33,378 bases of DNA from an uncultured bacterium (GTDB lineage Bacteria > Bacteroidota > Bacteroidia > Sphingobacteriales > Sphingobacteriaceae). The notes beneath the pieces were generated by a model. That model saw only the letters and a program-made list of their open reading frames with translations. It was not told where the DNA came from and searched no databases. Position numbers and translations under genes: made by a program. The DNA is taken from assembly GCA_903958995.1 (NCBI GenBank), contig CAJBVG010000111.1, forward strand, positions 1 through 33,378, given 5' to 3'. This document shows positions 25,195 through 32,761 of the stretch, one piece after another (position 1 is the first letter of the stretch; each line of letters begins with the position of its first letter).

Positions 25195-25947
25195 TTAGTC
25201 TTTAAAAATAAATTGTAAAATTTTGGATAAAGGCTTCATCAATAAAGTATAAAACTTTGGCTGCACACCATTTACAGTCCAAGCTCTCCTATCATCTCTA
25301 TTTGCATTTAAACGGTGCTGTAAGCTACGGTTACTCAATCCACCTTCTCGCATCAATACAAATACTTTAGGGATATATGCCAATTTAATGTTCTTCACAT
25401 GTATTACACGTAACATAAACTCATAGTCGGAAGCAGATGGCATATCTGTACGAAAAACGCCAAATTCATCATATACTTTTTTGCGAACATAAAAAGTCGG
25501 ATGAGGTGGCATCCACCCTTCTAAAAATTTACCGGGTCTATAGGTTCCAGATTTCCAGAATCGAATAACCTTACTAAGGTCATTTTGCTGCACATATTTT
25601 AAGTCGCCATAAACACCTGAGATTGTCTCATCATTAAAGGCCTTCATTACATCATCTAACACATTATTGTCAGCATAAACATCGTCAGCATTTAAAATAC
25701 CTATTACATCTCCTGTGGCCATAGCAATACCCTTATTCATTGCATCGTAAATGCCATTATCTTTTTCGGAAATCCATTTCGAAATTACTCCTTCATTTTT
25801 TTGAATAATTTCAACAGTATTATCTTTCGACAATCCGTCTACCACTATATATTCAATATTTGGATATGTCTGCTTTGAAATAGACATAATAGTATCTGCT
25901 ATTGTTGCAGCTGAATTATAACAAACTGTTATGATGCTAATTTTCAT
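25195..25947 (-). CDS. Glycosyltransferase family 2
   Basis: MKISIITVCYNSAATIADTIMSISKQTYPNIEYIVVDGLSKDNTVEII; GIYDAMNKGIAMATGDVIGILNADD. Confidence 0.92.
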   Translation of the reverse strand: MKISIITVCYNSAATIADTIMSISKQTYPNIEYIVVDGLSKDNTVEIIQKNEGVISKWISEKDNGIYDAMNKGIAMATGDVIGILNADDVYADNNVLDDVMKAFNDETISGVYGDLKYVQQNDLSKVIRFWKSGTYRPGKFLEGWMPPHPTFYVRKKVYDEFGVFRTDMPSASDYEFMLRVIHVKNIKLAYIPKVFVLMREGGLSNRSLQHRLNANRDDRRAWTVNGVQPKFYTLLMKPLSKILQFIFKD

Positions 25948-25949
25948 TG

Positions 25950-27680
25950 CTATGCTCTAGCGATATAAAAGTTGTCCATTACTAATACATCCATCTTCGT
26001 TCTTAAATAACAATCTAAGGCTTCTTGAGGTGTATTCACAATAGGTTCGTTTTCATTAAACGAGGTATTCAACAAAATTGGAACACCCGTTTTTTCATTA
26101 AAACGTTCAATAAGGCGATGGTAAATTGGTTCGTTCAATTTATCCACTGATTGTAATCTTCCGGTACCGTCAACATGTGTTACTGCCGGAATTTTATCTC
26201 TCATTTCGGGTTTAATAATGAACACCTTTTCCATGAATGGTACTTCGTCTGTTTGTTCAAAATAATCAGGAACTTTTTCAATTAAAATAGAAGGAGCGAA
26301 TGGTCTAAACGACTCTCTTCTTTTAATTTTTAGATTTAATATTTCTTTCGCATCGTTTCTACGAGGGTCGGCAATAATAGAACGGTGCCCTAATGCACGT
26401 GGACCAAATTCTGCTCTCCCCTGATACCATCCAATAACTTGTCCATCGATAATACGATCAGTTACAATATCAATTAATGCTTCTCTATCCTCAAAATATT
26501 GGAATGCTACATTATTACGTGTTAAAGTTTCTTCAATTTCTTCTTTAGTAGCTTTGTATCCGTAATAGCCAGTTTTACTAACTAGTGTTCTTTTATTTTT
26601 TTCTGTTTGATGGTAGTAATACAATGCGGATCCAATGCTTGTACCAGCATCATGCGCTGCAGGAGGTATATACAAATTTTTGAAACCTGTATTTAATATT
26701 ATTTTACCATTTGCTACTGAGTTTTGTCCAACACCACCAGCTAAGCATAAATTTTCTGATTTAGTTTTCAAACGTAAATGTTCAGCCATATGGAAAATAA
26801 CTTCTTCGGTTACTGCTTGAACACTCGCTGCTAAATCCTTATGGTATTGACTTAACTCTTCCTCTTTACCTCTAGCTGGCCCAAATGATTTTACGAACTG
26901 ATTCGAATACATCGTATCAACAAACGGAATTCCGTCTGTCCATGTCATGTTTACACCATTACGTGTATGGTTAAAGTAATTTAAATTCAATTTGAACAAT
27001 CCATCAGAAGTTAATTCTATAACCTGACGAACTTGCTCTTTATACAAGGCTTTGCCATATGGCGCCAAGCCCATCACTTTATACTCATCACCATAATGAG
27101 GAAATCCTAAGTATTGAGTAAATGCGGTATAAAACACCCCTAAGGAATGAGGATAATTTACTTTATCAAGTACTGTAAGTTGATTGCCTTTTCCATAAGA
27201 TGTCATAACAGAAGAGAAATCTCCGAAACCATCAATTGATAAAACGGCAGATTCTTCGAAAGGAGAAACGAAAAAAGCACTAGCTAAATGAGAACGATGA
27301 TGCTCAACATTTACAAACTTAGCTTTCATTGAAGAAAACTGATCTGAGAAGTGCAAGCGAAATTCATCTTCAATATTACCAGCTTTTCGAATATTAGATA
27401 CTCTATCTTTTATATTTCCTATGCTTAATCTATTTTTTAAAGCGCTAATAACCTTCAAGCCAAAATTAGCATACGGATCTCTCGAAATAGTAATAACATC
27501 AATATCTTTAAGGGTTAGACCCGCATCTTCTAAACAGAATTTTATTGCTTCGCTAGGAAAACCAGCCCAATGCTTAATTCTCCTAATTCGTTCTTCTTCT
27601 GTGGCAGATACTACTTGTCCGTCTATTAACAAACATGCAGATGCATCTCCATGATAGGCATTAAGTCCTAGTATTTTCAT
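25950..27680 (-). CDS. NodU/CmcH-type carbamoyltransferase
   Basis: MKILGLNAYHGDASACLLIDGQVVSATEEERIRRIKHWAGFPSEAI; LSIDGFGDFSS; CLAGGVGQNSVANGKI; WYQGRAEFGPRALGHRSIIADPR; PILLNTSFNENEPIV. ATG at 27680 preferred; the track start 27704 is a TTG. Confidence 0.92.
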   Translation of the reverse strand: MKILGLNAYHGDASACLLIDGQVVSATEEERIRRIKHWAGFPSEAIKFCLEDAGLTLKDIDVITISRDPYANFGLKVISALKNRLSIGNIKDRVSNIRKAGNIEDEFRLHFSDQFSSMKAKFVNVEHHRSHLASAFFVSPFEESAVLSIDGFGDFSSVMTSYGKGNQLTVLDKVNYPHSLGVFYTAFTQYLGFPHYGDEYKVMGLAPYGKALYKEQVRQVIELTSDGLFKLNLNYFNHTRNGVNMTWTDGIPFVDTMYSNQFVKSFGPARGKEEELSQYHKDLAASVQAVTEEVIFHMAEHLRLKTKSENLCLAGGVGQNSVANGKIILNTGFKNLYIPPAAHDAGTSIGSALYYYHQTEKNKRTLVSKTGYYGYKATKEEIEETLTRNNVAFQYFEDREALIDIVTDRIIDGQVIGWYQGRAEFGPRALGHRSIIADPRRNDAKEILNLKIKRRESFRPFAPSILIEKVPDYFEQTDEVPFMEKVFIIKPEMRDKIPAVTHVDGTGRLQSVDKLNEPIYHRLIERFNEKTGVPILLNTSFNENEPIVNTPQEALDCYLRTKMDVLVMDNFYIARA

Positions 27681-29040
27681 ATTTCTCGTTGAATCTAATG
27701 GCAATAACCATCATTGCAAAAATAACAAAATAAGAGATGATATTGAAGATGAAATGATGGTCGATGTTAATATTACTCCATTCAGTATAGGCGATACCAA
27801 CGGCAGATATTCTCAAAATATTTAATATATAGATGATTAATAAACCTACAAATAAATATGTTCTACGCACAAGATATTTAAATGGATAAGATAGTGCCAA
27901 AGCAATTTGAATACTCATTATACCATATCCTAAACAACTATACCCGACCCCGACACGCACTCCATCAATTATTTTCAAATGATAGGGTAATCGTATAGTG
28001 TCATAATTAAATATAGATAAAACTAAAGATGAAAAATAAATAATCGACTCGCGTAACCATCGAATATAATTCAAATGTTGATCTAAAAACGATGAGTAAA
28101 ACCTTCCGCCCTCTCCAGTAATTCCAATAAATAACTCGTTAAAGTAGTATAGCAATAAAAAAATGATGATGAATCGAGAGACAAAAAATATTTCACGATA
28201 ATTTTTTTTCGAATTTGCTTTTAATTCAAAAATATTTTGATCGACCGTTCGTCTGTACCAATAGGCTTGTAAATAATGAAACTTGGAACCAGTATAACCA
28301 TCTAGGAAACCTCCTAATATGATATATCGAGATAAGAAATAAATAATCGGACGGACAAATAGTGGCATTCTATTCCACATATTTTTTAAAAACAACCTAC
28401 GTTGATCCTGATTACCAAATAATCGTCCAGGGTTAGTTAGCAATTTCTCGTATTCTTCTTGAGCTTGAAGTTTAGCATATTTAACATGTTTGCTCTTCCA
28501 GAATATTAAATCTTCTTTTAGGTTATTCTCAATCATGTCTGATTGTAAACGTGCCGTCTTACCTTTAACATAGAAATGATGATCCATCAATTCAGATTCA
28601 TCCAAAAACACATCATCTTTTTTGAAGAGTTTTAGTAGAAAACGATTTTGATATCCACCGAATCGAATCCATTTCTCTAAAAAATAATTTCTTCGTCTAA
28701 TATAAAATCCACTAGTCGTAATTTCTTCTTTTGAACTAAACAACTCCATCAATTCTAAATTTAACTCTTGCGTAATGGTTTGGTCTGCATCTAATCCCAA
28801 TACCCAATCTACATCTTCAGGTAGTTGCGTTAATGCGAACTTCCATTGTTTTGTGTGAGTTTCAAACTTATTTGCGATAAATGTTGCACCAAATGCTTTT
28901 GCTATTTCTTCAGTTCCATCTGTAGAAAATGAATCTATAACAAATACATTTGCATTTAAGCCCTTAATACTCTCGAGGCATTTGGGAAGATTGAGCTCTT
29001 CATTAAATGTTAAAATTACTACAGCTAAGTTATTGCTCAT
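27661..29040 (-). CDS. GT2 glycosyltransferase - exosortase/archaeosortase-family fusion protein
   Basis: N-terminal GT2 (VVILTFNEELNLPKCLESIKG; IDSFSTDGTEEIA; LGLDADQT) to about residue 265, then about 175 aa of multi-TM sequence with GYSCLGYG (Cys369), LNILRI (Arg410), DHHFIFN (His428/429) in the order expected for exosortases. Confidence 0.8.
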   Translation of the reverse strand: MSNNLAVVILTFNEELNLPKCLESIKGLNANVFVIDSFSTDGTEEIAKAFGATFIANKFETHTKQWKFALTQLPEDVDWVLGLDADQTITQELNLELMELFSSKEEITTSGFYIRRRNYFLEKWIRFGGYQNRFLLKLFKKDDVFLDESELMDHHFYVKGKTARLQSDMIENNLKEDLIFWKSKHVKYAKLQAQEEYEKLLTNPGRLFGNQDQRRLFLKNMWNRMPLFVRPIIYFLSRYIILGGFLDGYTGSKFHYLQAYWYRRTVDQNIFELKANSKKNYREIFFVSRFIIIFLLLYYFNELFIGITGEGGRFYSSFLDQHLNYIRWLRESIIYFSSLVLSIFNYDTIRLPYHLKIIDGVRVGVGYSCLGYGIMSIQIALALSYPFKYLVRRTYLFVGLLIIYILNILRISAVGIAYTEWSNINIDHHFIFNIISYFVIFAMMVIAIRFNEKYENTRT

Positions 29041-29044
29041 AGAA

Positions 29045-30181
29045 TTAATGTGAGTTCAACGATGTGTTGTACATCGCAATGTACCTATTAGAAATATTCG
29101 CTTCTGAGAAATTACTCTCTATAATAGAGGTTGAAGTCTCTCTAATGTTTTTCAATTTTTGCGGACTTGTTTTGCTTTCATTTAAAACTTCTTCTAAATT
29201 ATTTACAGAGCTATCATACACCCAACCTAAATTATTGTCCGAAACAAAATCAGATAAGCCTACATTTTTCGAAACAATTACAGCAGTGCCTTGTGCCAAA
29301 GATTCTAAAACAGTATTCGCGAAATTCTCATCTTTAGAAGGAAGTATAAATACATCTGCATTTGCATAAGATCGAATTTTGTCGTCATTATACAATGCCC
29401 CTTTCCAAGAAATACTATTTTCTATCATCAGTTTTCTAGACAATAATTTTAATTCTTCTATATAGTTTGAATCGCCATCGCCTACTATACTTAGGTGGTA
29501 ATTAAAACCCACTTTACTCAATGCACTAAACAAATCCTCTAACCCTTTTTTGGGATGAATCCTAGACAAAAACAACAAATTGAAAATATCAGAATTTTCA
29601 CTTCTAATTACATTTTGAGACTTTGAATTTACATCAACGTAATTTGGTACATCAATTAAAGTATAGCGTGGATTTAATTTATCTAATTTCTGTTTCTCAT
29701 CATTACTAGTCACATGAATTATAGCATTTTTCAATAAATAGTTCCCAATAAGGTTGTGAATAATCTTTTTTACAATAGAATGCTCAATTGTATATGGGCT
29801 AAGCATTCCCCTCGGACTAATAATATATTTCCAAGATTTTATTTTACAAATAAGTGCTGTTAAAACTGCGACAGTATTCCACCACGACTGTATATGTATT
29901 ACCTGGTATTCGCCACCATGTTTCCATAGATAGCGCAGCATACCAATCGACAAATGAGAATGGTCTTTAGTTTGACGCTTGAAAAATCTAATATTAACAC
30001 CATCCATTTGTAAAGGGTGTAGTGTATCAATTGTTAAGTTCTCCTTACCATTTGCATTAGTTGACAGCACAAACACTTCGTTATGTTTCAATAAATTTTC
30101 AGCTAAATAAGCTACCGAAAATATTGGTCCGCCGTAAACAAATGCAGGCTTATAAGAAGGAGTAATGATTAAAATTTTCAC
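29045..30181 (-). CDS. Glycosyltransferase family 4 (resembles XrtY-associated type)
   Basis: MKILIITPSYKPAFVYGGPIFSVAYLAENLL; SPRGMLSPYTI; LFLSRIHPKKGLEDLFSAL; DVFILPSKDENFANTVLESLAQGTAVIVSKNVGLSDFV. Confidence 0.9.
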   Translation of the reverse strand: MKILIITPSYKPAFVYGGPIFSVAYLAENLLKHNEVFVLSTNANGKENLTIDTLHPLQMDGVNIRFFKRQTKDHSHLSIGMLRYLWKHGGEYQVIHIQSWWNTVAVLTALICKIKSWKYIISPRGMLSPYTIEHSIVKKIIHNLIGNYLLKNAIIHVTSNDEKQKLDKLNPRYTLIDVPNYVDVNSKSQNVIRSENSDIFNLLFLSRIHPKKGLEDLFSALSKVGFNYHLSIVGDGDSNYIEELKLLSRKLMIENSISWKGALYNDDKIRSYANADVFILPSKDENFANTVLESLAQGTAVIVSKNVGLSDFVSDNNLGWVYDSSVNNLEEVLNESKTSPQKLKNIRETSTSIIESNFSEANISNRYIAMYNTSLNSH

Positions 30182-30183
30182 TT

Positions 30184-31608
30184 CTAACGGCTGTTTACTG
30201 AATGAAAATACTTTGGATTTGGAATGATATAGTTAAAACGCTTCATGGTGAATAATACAATGAACATGGATACAATACCCCAAAATATTGAGTTCACTAA
30301 AAACTCCATGCAATTTCCTCTATTCATAATTTGAAACAAGCCTAAGTATATCCAAATGGTCCCTAAGTTATAACCACAGAATAAATATTCTGCAGCAGTG
30401 TTGATTAAAGATGTTATTGCACCAAATGCAAATAATACCAAAAACACAAACAACAATCCACCAGATAAATAGGCATCCACAACAATTGGAGGCTTAGCCG
30501 ATACAAGCATTTGTTGATTAACTACACCTACTTCATATACTCTTTTCATTACATGCTCTTCAATGTCGGGTTTATCAGGCCAAAATAATCGAGGTAATAT
30601 AAATCGAAATGAATCCCATATAATTGTTATTCCATAATAATTAATTTCTGAAGGAACTTTACGTTTGTATTCATTTAACATGGAGATTTCAGAGGCTCGA
30701 GTAACTAAAAACTCCCAGTTGTCATCGTAGACATTAATCTCCCCAGATTGAATGGCATCAATTGCTGATTGTGCTGCTTCAGATGATTCTACACCCTCAG
30801 CCCATGCTTGATTTCTATATGTAGCATTAAAACTAGGTAAGAAAAATACAACCAAAAAGAATATAGGTAATGCCGAAAAGATAACTGTTCTTTTATATCG
30901 TGGATATAAATAGGCTGCAAAAATGATTATGGTAAAAATAATTGGCTCTTTCCAACCAGATAATAGTACTTGAGCAAAATTTATAGCGAATAATACATAA
31001 GCCAAAATATAAAATTGTGCCTTTTTATTATCTGATTTATAAAGTATTGATATAATAGAAGAAATATAAGCAAAATCTGCTGCCTTCACAGAGAACTGAC
31101 TAAGACCTGGAATAAATAGAAATACAAATTTTAAAATTGTTAAAAGTACAGCTGCTTTCAAGAAAAAATTAGCATCTATCTTTTCTTCATTTACAATCCA
31201 TTTTATGTTTTTCTTATATTGAAGAAAAAACAATAACCCAAAAGAATAGGCCGCATGCGCTAAAGCATAAATTCTTTGACTAGCTGCGGTTTCATCAAGT
31301 GTTGAGTAGTCAATATAAAACACCGGCGATTTAATGAAATTCTTATACCCTAACACATCTAAATAAAAAAACACAGAGGTTAAGCTCATGTATCCAACAA
31401 ATATTAATTGACCTAAAAACATAGGTCGCATAAATTGATGACTTAAATCAAAATCTTTAGGGATAGGACGAATTACGCCGTAATACACTAATATTAAATT
31501 CAGAATGGAACCACCCCAAGCAATGCTATATGAAACAGCGGGGTTACTTGCTAAAAGCGAAGCAAAAAACCAGGGTATAAATAAAATAAGATATCGTAAG
31601 TTAAACAT
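30184..31608 (-). CDS. Wzy-like O-antigen/exopolysaccharide polymerase-type membrane protein
   Basis: 474 aa, many TM segments with a large soluble loop (FLPSFNATYRNQAWAEG...ITIIWDSFRFILPRLFWPDKPDIEEHVM), inside a glycan locus. Assignment rests on topology, context and remembered similarity. Confidence 0.65.
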   Translation of the reverse strand: MFNLRYLILFIPWFFASLLASNPAVSYSIAWGGSILNLILVYYGVIRPIPKDFDLSHQFMRPMFLGQLIFVGYMSLTSVFFYLDVLGYKNFIKSPVFYIDYSTLDETAASQRIYALAHAAYSFGLLFFLQYKKNIKWIVNEEKIDANFFLKAAVLLTILKFVFLFIPGLSQFSVKAADFAYISSIISILYKSDNKKAQFYILAYVLFAINFAQVLLSGWKEPIIFTIIIFAAYLYPRYKRTVIFSALPIFFLVVFFLPSFNATYRNQAWAEGVESSEAAQSAIDAIQSGEINVYDDNWEFLVTRASEISMLNEYKRKVPSEINYYGITIIWDSFRFILPRLFWPDKPDIEEHVMKRVYEVGVVNQQMLVSAKPPIVVDAYLSGGLLFVFLVLFAFGAITSLINTAAEYLFCGYNLGTIWIYLGLFQIMNRGNCMEFLVNSIFWGIVSMFIVLFTMKRFNYIIPNPKYFHSVNSR

Positions 31609-32761
31609 TCTTTAATAAGGCGTTTTCAAAATTAACAACTAATTTATTTATTGACCAATCTTTAATATTGATGATGGACTTCTCTTTCATCTCCATTAAT
31701 ATGATATTATGTTGAATAAGCTCTTTCATCTTTACAGATAACATATCACTATTACCAGCTTCAAATATATACCCATTATTGGTAATTAAATCAACAGCGG
31801 AACCAACTTTATCACTTGCAATTATAGCTAATCCACAATTCATGGCTTCATTTATTCCTAAGCCCCATGTTTCTGAAACCGATGGCAATACAAAAACGTC
31901 AGCTGAACGATAAATCATTGGCATTTGAGATTGATTCATAAACCCTACAAAACGAATATTGGGGTCTGTTGAAGACATATTTTTTAACATCTCTTCATCA
32001 GGGCCATTCCCTACCATTAGTAAAGTGCAGGGTTGATCTTTCAAATTCAATTTCGCTTGAATAAGTGTTTGTAGATTTTTTCTGTATTCAAATTTCCCAG
32101 TATAAAGAAAAACTGTATGATTCTCTGGGATTTTCAATTCAGACTTAAAATCTGCGACCTTACGCTTTAACTCATCAGTATAAACAACAAACCTAGATTC
32201 ATTAATTGCATGAGGTGCAAAAAAAATGTTTTCTTCTTTAAAACCTACCCATTTATAATACTCTTTGTTGTTACTTCCTACAGCAATTGGGTAATCTACA
32301 TTTCTATAGATCCAATTTAAGTATAATCTTCTGATTAAATTTTTGAAAGATGATTGCTTAGTTAGTAGATGAGAATCTCCTCTGAAATAAATTGGCACCT
32401 TGCCTTTGAAATACTTCAAAACAGATAGATGACTTTTAAAACTCCATCCAAAAACAACAATTTTATCTGGATTATACTCTTCTATTCTTTGTATAATATC
32501 TGGATTCACTATGCCATTAAAATGATGTGTCCCGGGATCTTGTGCTGTATTATTTAGAAACTCGTATGAATAACCTTCTAATAAAGGAACATCCCATTCT
32601 ACTACTCGATTGAATCCTGGATCAAATTTATTTATGGATTGTTCTCCCCAAGTATAAAACACTTTTAGATCTATATTCCCACGCTCTACTAGTCCAGTTA
32701 ATATTGGCACATAGTATTGTATAGGATGAGATATAATAAATGCTACTTTGACTTTACTCAT
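31601..32761 (-). CDS. Glycosyltransferase family 4
   Basis: VAFIISHPIQYYVPILTGLVERGNIDLKVFYTWG; FLYTGKFEYRKNLQTLIQA; DVFVLPSVSETWGLGINEAMNCGLAIIASDKVGSAVDLI. Overlaps the next gene by 8 nt. Confidence 0.92.
   Translation of the reverse strand: MSKVKVAFIISHPIQYYVPILTGLVERGNIDLKVFYTWGEQSINKFDPGFNRVVEWDVPLLEGYSYEFLNNTAQDPGTHHFNGIVNPDIIQRIEEYNPDKIVVFGWSFKSHLSVLKYFKGKVPIYFRGDSHLLTKQSSFKNLIRRLYLNWIYRNVDYPIAVGSNNKEYYKWVGFKEENIFFAPHAINESRFVVYTDELKRKVADFKSELKIPENHTVFLYTGKFEYRKNLQTLIQAKLNLKDQPCTLLMVGNGPDEEMLKNMSSTDPNIRFVGFMNQSQMPMIYRSADVFVLPSVSETWGLGINEAMNCGLAIIASDKVGSAVDLITNNGYIFEAGNSDMLSVKMKELIQHNIILMEMKEKSIINIKDWSINKLVVNFENALLKNV

Follow-up and report, generated by a model that had tools for sequence, protein, structure and literature searches.

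The locus described here raises the question of why a glycosyltransferase and a sortase-like membrane enzyme should be joined in one polypeptide, and what such a protein would act on. The window, by which we mean the whole stretch of DNA analysed, is an entire contig (C111, 33,378 bp) of a 94% complete metagenome-assembled genome (MAG) of 2.3 Mb in 356 contigs. On its minus strand, one ATG-started open reading frame running from 29040 to 27661 encodes a 459-aa protein, in which domain models place a GT2 glycosyltransferase at the N-terminus and an exosortase at the C-terminus; the plus strand across the same interval contains many stops. The initial annotation proposed exactly such a single-frame fusion, and this is borne out by the matches of PF00535 and NF046083 within the frame and by the same fusion in the sister MAG G396 (71% identity). 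Together with at least 38 other fused frames, the sister MAG rules out an assembly error or a chance read-through. The fusion is thus real and recurrent, and it belongs to an XrtY-type system. The matches of the two domain models abut with no linker between them. An AlphaFold2 model of the fused protein has a mean pLDDT of 93.5 and a pTM of 0.78. In searches of solved structures with the fused protein, all significant matches fall on the GT2 part (SunS, TarS, WrtF and similar), with no solved exosortase among them.

The GT2 part comprises residues 1 to about 277 (28210..29040, minus strand). Its PF00535 core at residues 7–133 is matched with an E-value of 3e-14 and 53.6 bits, above the gathering score of 23.3. 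The DxD motif is found as DAD at residues 84–86, with Asp86 present in 54 of 54 aligned rows and Asp84 in 53 of 54, and Asp36 is also near-invariant. The GT2 motifs reported earlier for the N-terminal part are therefore confirmed. The exosortase domain covers residues 282–447 (27700..28197, minus strand). Here the exosortase Y model NF046083, which has 168 positions and describes the exosortase part only, matches residues 282–446 with an E-value of 2e-39 and 135.1 bits, below its cut-off of 160 bits, and the general exosortase/archaeosortase model TIGR04178 matches residues 365–451 with 33 bits, above its cut-off of 23. PF09721 reaches 17.9 bits against a gathering score of 25.7, and the XrtF and XrtX models give 25 bits (cut-off 90) and 58 bits (cut-off 170). 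The suggested HMM comparison of the C-terminal half thus succeeds with TIGR04178 and falls short with PF09721 and exosortase Y. Cys369, Arg410 and His428/429 are found where the initial annotation had put them, in this order within a domain of hydrophobic segments. In an 85-row alignment, Cys369, Arg410, His429 and also Asn407 are each present in 62 of 62 exosortase rows, and His428 in 61 of them. On the evidence of these models and residues, the C-terminal half does belong to the exosortase family and has the conserved triad.

The fusion gene is surrounded by glycan-related genes on the same strand, which make up almost the whole operon. Upstream, the gene of an XrtY-associated glycosyltransferase, XYAG1 (29045..30181), lies 4 nt from the ATG of the fusion, followed by those of an exosortase Y-associated Wzy-like protein (30184..31608), a GT4 glycosyltransferase (31601..32761, PF00534) and an FkbM-family methyltransferase fragment near the contig end (32762..33286, family models). 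Downstream, a NodU-type carbamoyltransferase (25950..27680, PF02543 and PF16861) overlaps the 3' end of the fusion gene with its ATG at 27680, and a second, ordinary GT2 glycosyltransferase follows at 25195..25947 (family model). No sorting-signal gene is seen within this operon. The locus can be assigned to the XrtY type by its partner genes, though its exosortase misses the XrtY cut-off, because the adjoining Wzy-like protein and XYAG1 pass theirs (NF046084, 499 bits over 420; NF046085, 425 bits over 400). The earlier suggestion that this locus may be of the XrtY type is thereby supported. For comparison, the separate XrtY of the relative G415 scores 183 bits with NF046083, against the 135.1 bits of the window protein. 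At other XrtY loci, a conserved hydrophobic protein of about 520 aa is encoded after XrtY and a 184-aa protein (L108:5981-7564, minus strand, and 36 other loci); one 523-aa example of this protein, which lies downstream of many canonical loci, was scanned and gave no Pfam family over cut-off.

How the fusion arose is best seen from its relatives. Of the 396 genomes in the family to which the window belongs, 186 have exosortase Y matches, 156 of them over the cut-off, and in the match list of these genomes at least 38 places besides the window carry fused open frames, of 472–514 aa. The DNA around chosen XrtY loci contains 41 fused frames (40 at full length) and 62 separate XrtY genes, numbers that give no frequency since fused loci were chosen on purpose. 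In 54 of the 62 split loci, all of Sphingobacteriaceae, a family of soil and water bacteria, a GT2 gene stands directly upstream on the same strand, and many of these pairs overlap by 1–29 nt. In the ORF studied here, two genes that usually lie side by side in the XrtY-type exopolysaccharide locus of Sphingobacteriaceae have become one. Whether the fusion might be part of the XrtY definition had been left open in the initial annotation; this is ruled out, as NF046083 is limited to the exosortase and XrtY mostly has a gene of its own, immediately behind that of the GT2. Among named genomes, searched with a profile of 10 fused rows, the two-domain relatives are nearly all Sphingobacteriaceae (Pedobacter, Mucilaginibacter and others). 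Of 80 loci in named genomes, 16 have the same GT2 family with no adjoining exosortase, among them loci of Saprospiraceae, Cytophagales, Chitinophagaceae and one Pedobacter. In G402, a genome without an XrtY match, the GT2 occurs in three tandem copies with a Wzy gene nearby (L124:7391-10120).

In a tree of 94 GT2 plus XrtY rows, the fused and split states interleave and change about six times, with five of the changes forced by starred branches, while the operons are otherwise similar; the tree does not separate gain of the fusion from its loss. Both the window and its sister G396 carry the fused form; in G415, closest to this pair in the tree, the genes are separate. Two further loci are to be noted. 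In G407, GT2 and XrtY share one frame with two TAA stops between them, suggestive of a fusion that has been broken or has almost formed (L115:6784-8235), and G788 carries, besides a full copy at L110, a second, 5'-truncated copy of the GT2–XrtY fusion (L109:7436-8419).

A candidate substrate is found elsewhere in the genome. The window genome contains one exosortase match and one match to the PID-CTERM model NF046080, although at 94% completeness a further exosortase or target could be missed. The PID-CTERM protein, encoded on the minus strand of contig C283 (L170:3919-4107), scores 45–46 bits against a cut-off of 26. It is a mini-protein of 62 aa composed of MKKVFKHTLALTALLVAFSIPTFA, QDPGPDPGGDPDAPIDGG, a hydrophobic stretch and KTLRKKN, which is little beyond a signal peptide and a sorting signal. 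A close relative is present in the sister G396, which likewise has a single exosortase and a single PID-CTERM protein. The PID-CTERM open frames of the relatives measure 56–147 aa, and in the shorter ones the sorting signal follows the signal peptide almost directly. Matches to PID-CTERM occur in 51 of the 186 exosortase-positive genomes versus 3 of 210 negative ones, and, among the matches listed, in 11 of 15 positive genera versus 0 of 10 negative genera. When the XrtY genomes are binned by score, with bins set once the scores were known, the signal is found in 40 of 66 lower-scoring genomes versus 2 of 107 canonical, high-scoring ones.

A variant C-terminal signal, C-PLDxW, is observed in Mucilaginibacter on short open frames, mostly of 67–100 aa (L210-L239); four examples were scanned with NF046080 and all stay under its cut-off. 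The A3 profile ('C-x-V-P-L-D-x-W'), built from three Mucilaginibacter examples that are all from exosortase-positive genomes, gives 71 matches at E < 1e-4, 70 of them in exosortase-positive genomes. Taken together, the PID or PLDxW signal is present in 113 of 186 exosortase-positive versus 4 of 210 negative genomes (Fisher p 6e-43, phylogeny ignored); the four are G439, G683, G770 and G779. Exosortase and mini-protein are strongly associated, also when genera are compared. A set of 40 canonical Pedobacter genomes, in which XrtY scores are high, yielded neither signal. In these 40 genomes, the best matches of a broader profile (A2) lie inside long frames of about 840 aa, and a recurrent frame of 67–77 aa is without the signal.

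In the window genome, a gene for a 944-aa T9SS type A cargo protein (L170:4113-6947, minus strand; TIGR04183, 40 bits over 23) ends 5 nt before the ATG of the mini-protein. A tail model built from 12 neighbours detects a T9SS type A cargo tail beside the mini-protein gene in 43 of 61 loci versus 6 of 1235 background genes, a contrast that is indicative, since the background is drawn from XrtY polysaccharide loci and not from whole genomes. Among held-out same-strand neighbours within 60 nt of the mini-protein gene, 25 of 25 carry the tail, and 10 of 10 sampled neighbours pass TIGR04183. That exosortase and T9SS surface systems should be connected through such a gene pair was unexpected. Compared with the fusion itself, the association with a signal-only mini-protein encoded beside a T9SS cargo gene is the greater surprise.

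The orientation of the fused protein bears on any mechanism. Family-wide charge and hydropathy show a positive segment before TM1, slightly acidic loops at residues 307–324 and 344–368 and a positive loop at 385–391; the helix 325–343 has low hydropathy and may be re-entrant. With this helix taken as re-entrant, the pattern fits a cytoplasmic GT2 domain, with Cys369, Arg410 and His428/429 towards the periplasmic ends of the helices. It appears unlikely that one active site hands its product directly to the other, because the charge distribution sets them on opposite faces of the membrane, so that any coupling would need a flippase step and a flipped lipid-linked sugar. We consider it about an even chance that the protein is an inner-membrane fusion of a cytoplasmic GT2 and a periplasmic-facing transpeptidase which processes the 62-aa mini-protein, with the glycan or glycolipid of the operon as plausible acceptor. 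The GT2 domain would add a sugar to a glycan precursor on the cytoplasmic side, with flipping and Wzy polymerisation coming after. The exosortase part would most likely cleave the PID-CTERM signal of the mini-protein. The short remaining peptide would be held on Cys369 and then passed to an acceptor, most plausibly the glycan or glycolipid of the fusion's own operon, lipid-linked or polymerised, which would tie the processing of the mini-protein to this glycan. Several observations count against this explanation: the XrtY score of 135 bits, below 160; the operon lacking a sorting-signal gene; the 40 canonical Pedobacter genomes; the GT2 family at loci with no adjoining exosortase; and the four genomes with a signal and no exosortase match.

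Other explanations have to be weighed against this one. The initial annotation suggested one membrane enzyme that makes a glycan intermediate and also attaches it. As stated, this is unsupported, given the opposite faces inferred from charge, and it is further weakened by the GT2 family at loci without an adjoining exosortase. Its strictest form, a bifunctional enzyme that builds a sugar-lipid and itself links this very sugar to a protein, would account for the physical joining of a GT2 to a transpeptidase; with the two active sites apart and with most relatives using two separate polypeptides, we regard it as highly improbable. A simpler account is that the fusion only fixes stoichiometry and co-localisation, the domains being independent: adjacent, often overlapping genes would occasionally lose a stop or shift frame. 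The frequent short overlaps of split pairs make fusion easy, and the missing linker and the interleaving of both forms in otherwise alike operons agree with it. Nevertheless, the repeated origin of the fusion and its retention in about 30 related Mucilaginibacter loci suggest that GT2 and exosortase work together, as does the strong conservation of both active sites, and this account is in our judgement rather unlikely.

The exosortase domain might also serve as a factor of exopolysaccharide export or anchoring with no protein substrate, the mini-proteins being processed otherwise or correlated through shared lineages. Such a role would suit an operon made up nearly entirely of glycan genes, and also the canonical Pedobacter genomes without a signal. 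It is countered by the strong co-occurrence of signal and exosortase, which is seen between genera as well, and by the two sister genomes, each with one exosortase and one PID-CTERM protein; we hold it improbable. A bolder extension of the transpeptidase mechanism is that the exosortase joins the mini-protein peptide to a Wzy-made surface glycan, whose precursor is made by the fused GT2, and that this peptide–glycan anchors or partners the T9SS type A cargo. We think this unlikely; if true, it would unite exosortase, Wzy polysaccharide and T9SS surface systems.

We know of no established acceptor for the targets of bacterial exosortases, and of no established substrate in Bacteroidota; the recurrent exosortase–GT2 fusion points to a glycan as acceptor. 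Since a single exosortase and a single candidate mini-substrate are detected, the question of the acceptor becomes directly testable in this system, and the mature peptide expected from the mini-protein, of only about 15–20 residues, would be easy to follow by mass spectrometry.

Several known systems can be compared. For the joint curation of an exosortase family and a GT2, there is a precedent in XrtG and the GT2 of TIGR03111, which are Gram-positive and encoded by separate genes; the fused GT2 of the window gives no match to TIGR03111, the model described as XrtG-associated. We know of no GT2 fusion of archaeosortase A. The Haloferax enzyme ArtA has been modelled as a Cys peptidase/transpeptidase that attaches a lipid to the new C-terminus of its target (PMC7157517). 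It resembles the window protein weakly (E 0.006, below the cut-off of its model) and differs in being archaeal and in its proposed acceptor, archaetidylethanolamine, which involves no glycan. XrtF of Flavobacterium johnsoniae (TIGR04128) is likewise a Bacteroidota exosortase, related to the window protein with an E-value of 1.6e-5, well under the model's cut-off in bits; in the parts of the report consulted (PMC10936215), a GT2 fusion is not mentioned for XrtF, its substrates are left to future work, and deletion of xrtF strongly reduces biofilm and abolishes zorbs. The ArtA model and this biofilm loss fit the proposed mechanism and do not test it. For XrtY and PID-CTERM, no paper was found in the literature searched. 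The exosortase Y system (NF046083, NF046084 and NF046085) resembles that of the window in its exosortase model, which matches the window protein, and in both associated families, which are over cut-off. The window system differs from it in the score of its exosortase, in the fusion to a GT2 that lies outside the 168-position model, and in its pairing with PID-CTERM, which canonical XrtY genomes mostly lack. The one PID-CTERM protein detected in the window genome matches NF046080 above its cut-off; it is distinctive as a 62-aa product with hardly more than a signal peptide and the sorting signal, encoded beside a T9SS cargo gene.
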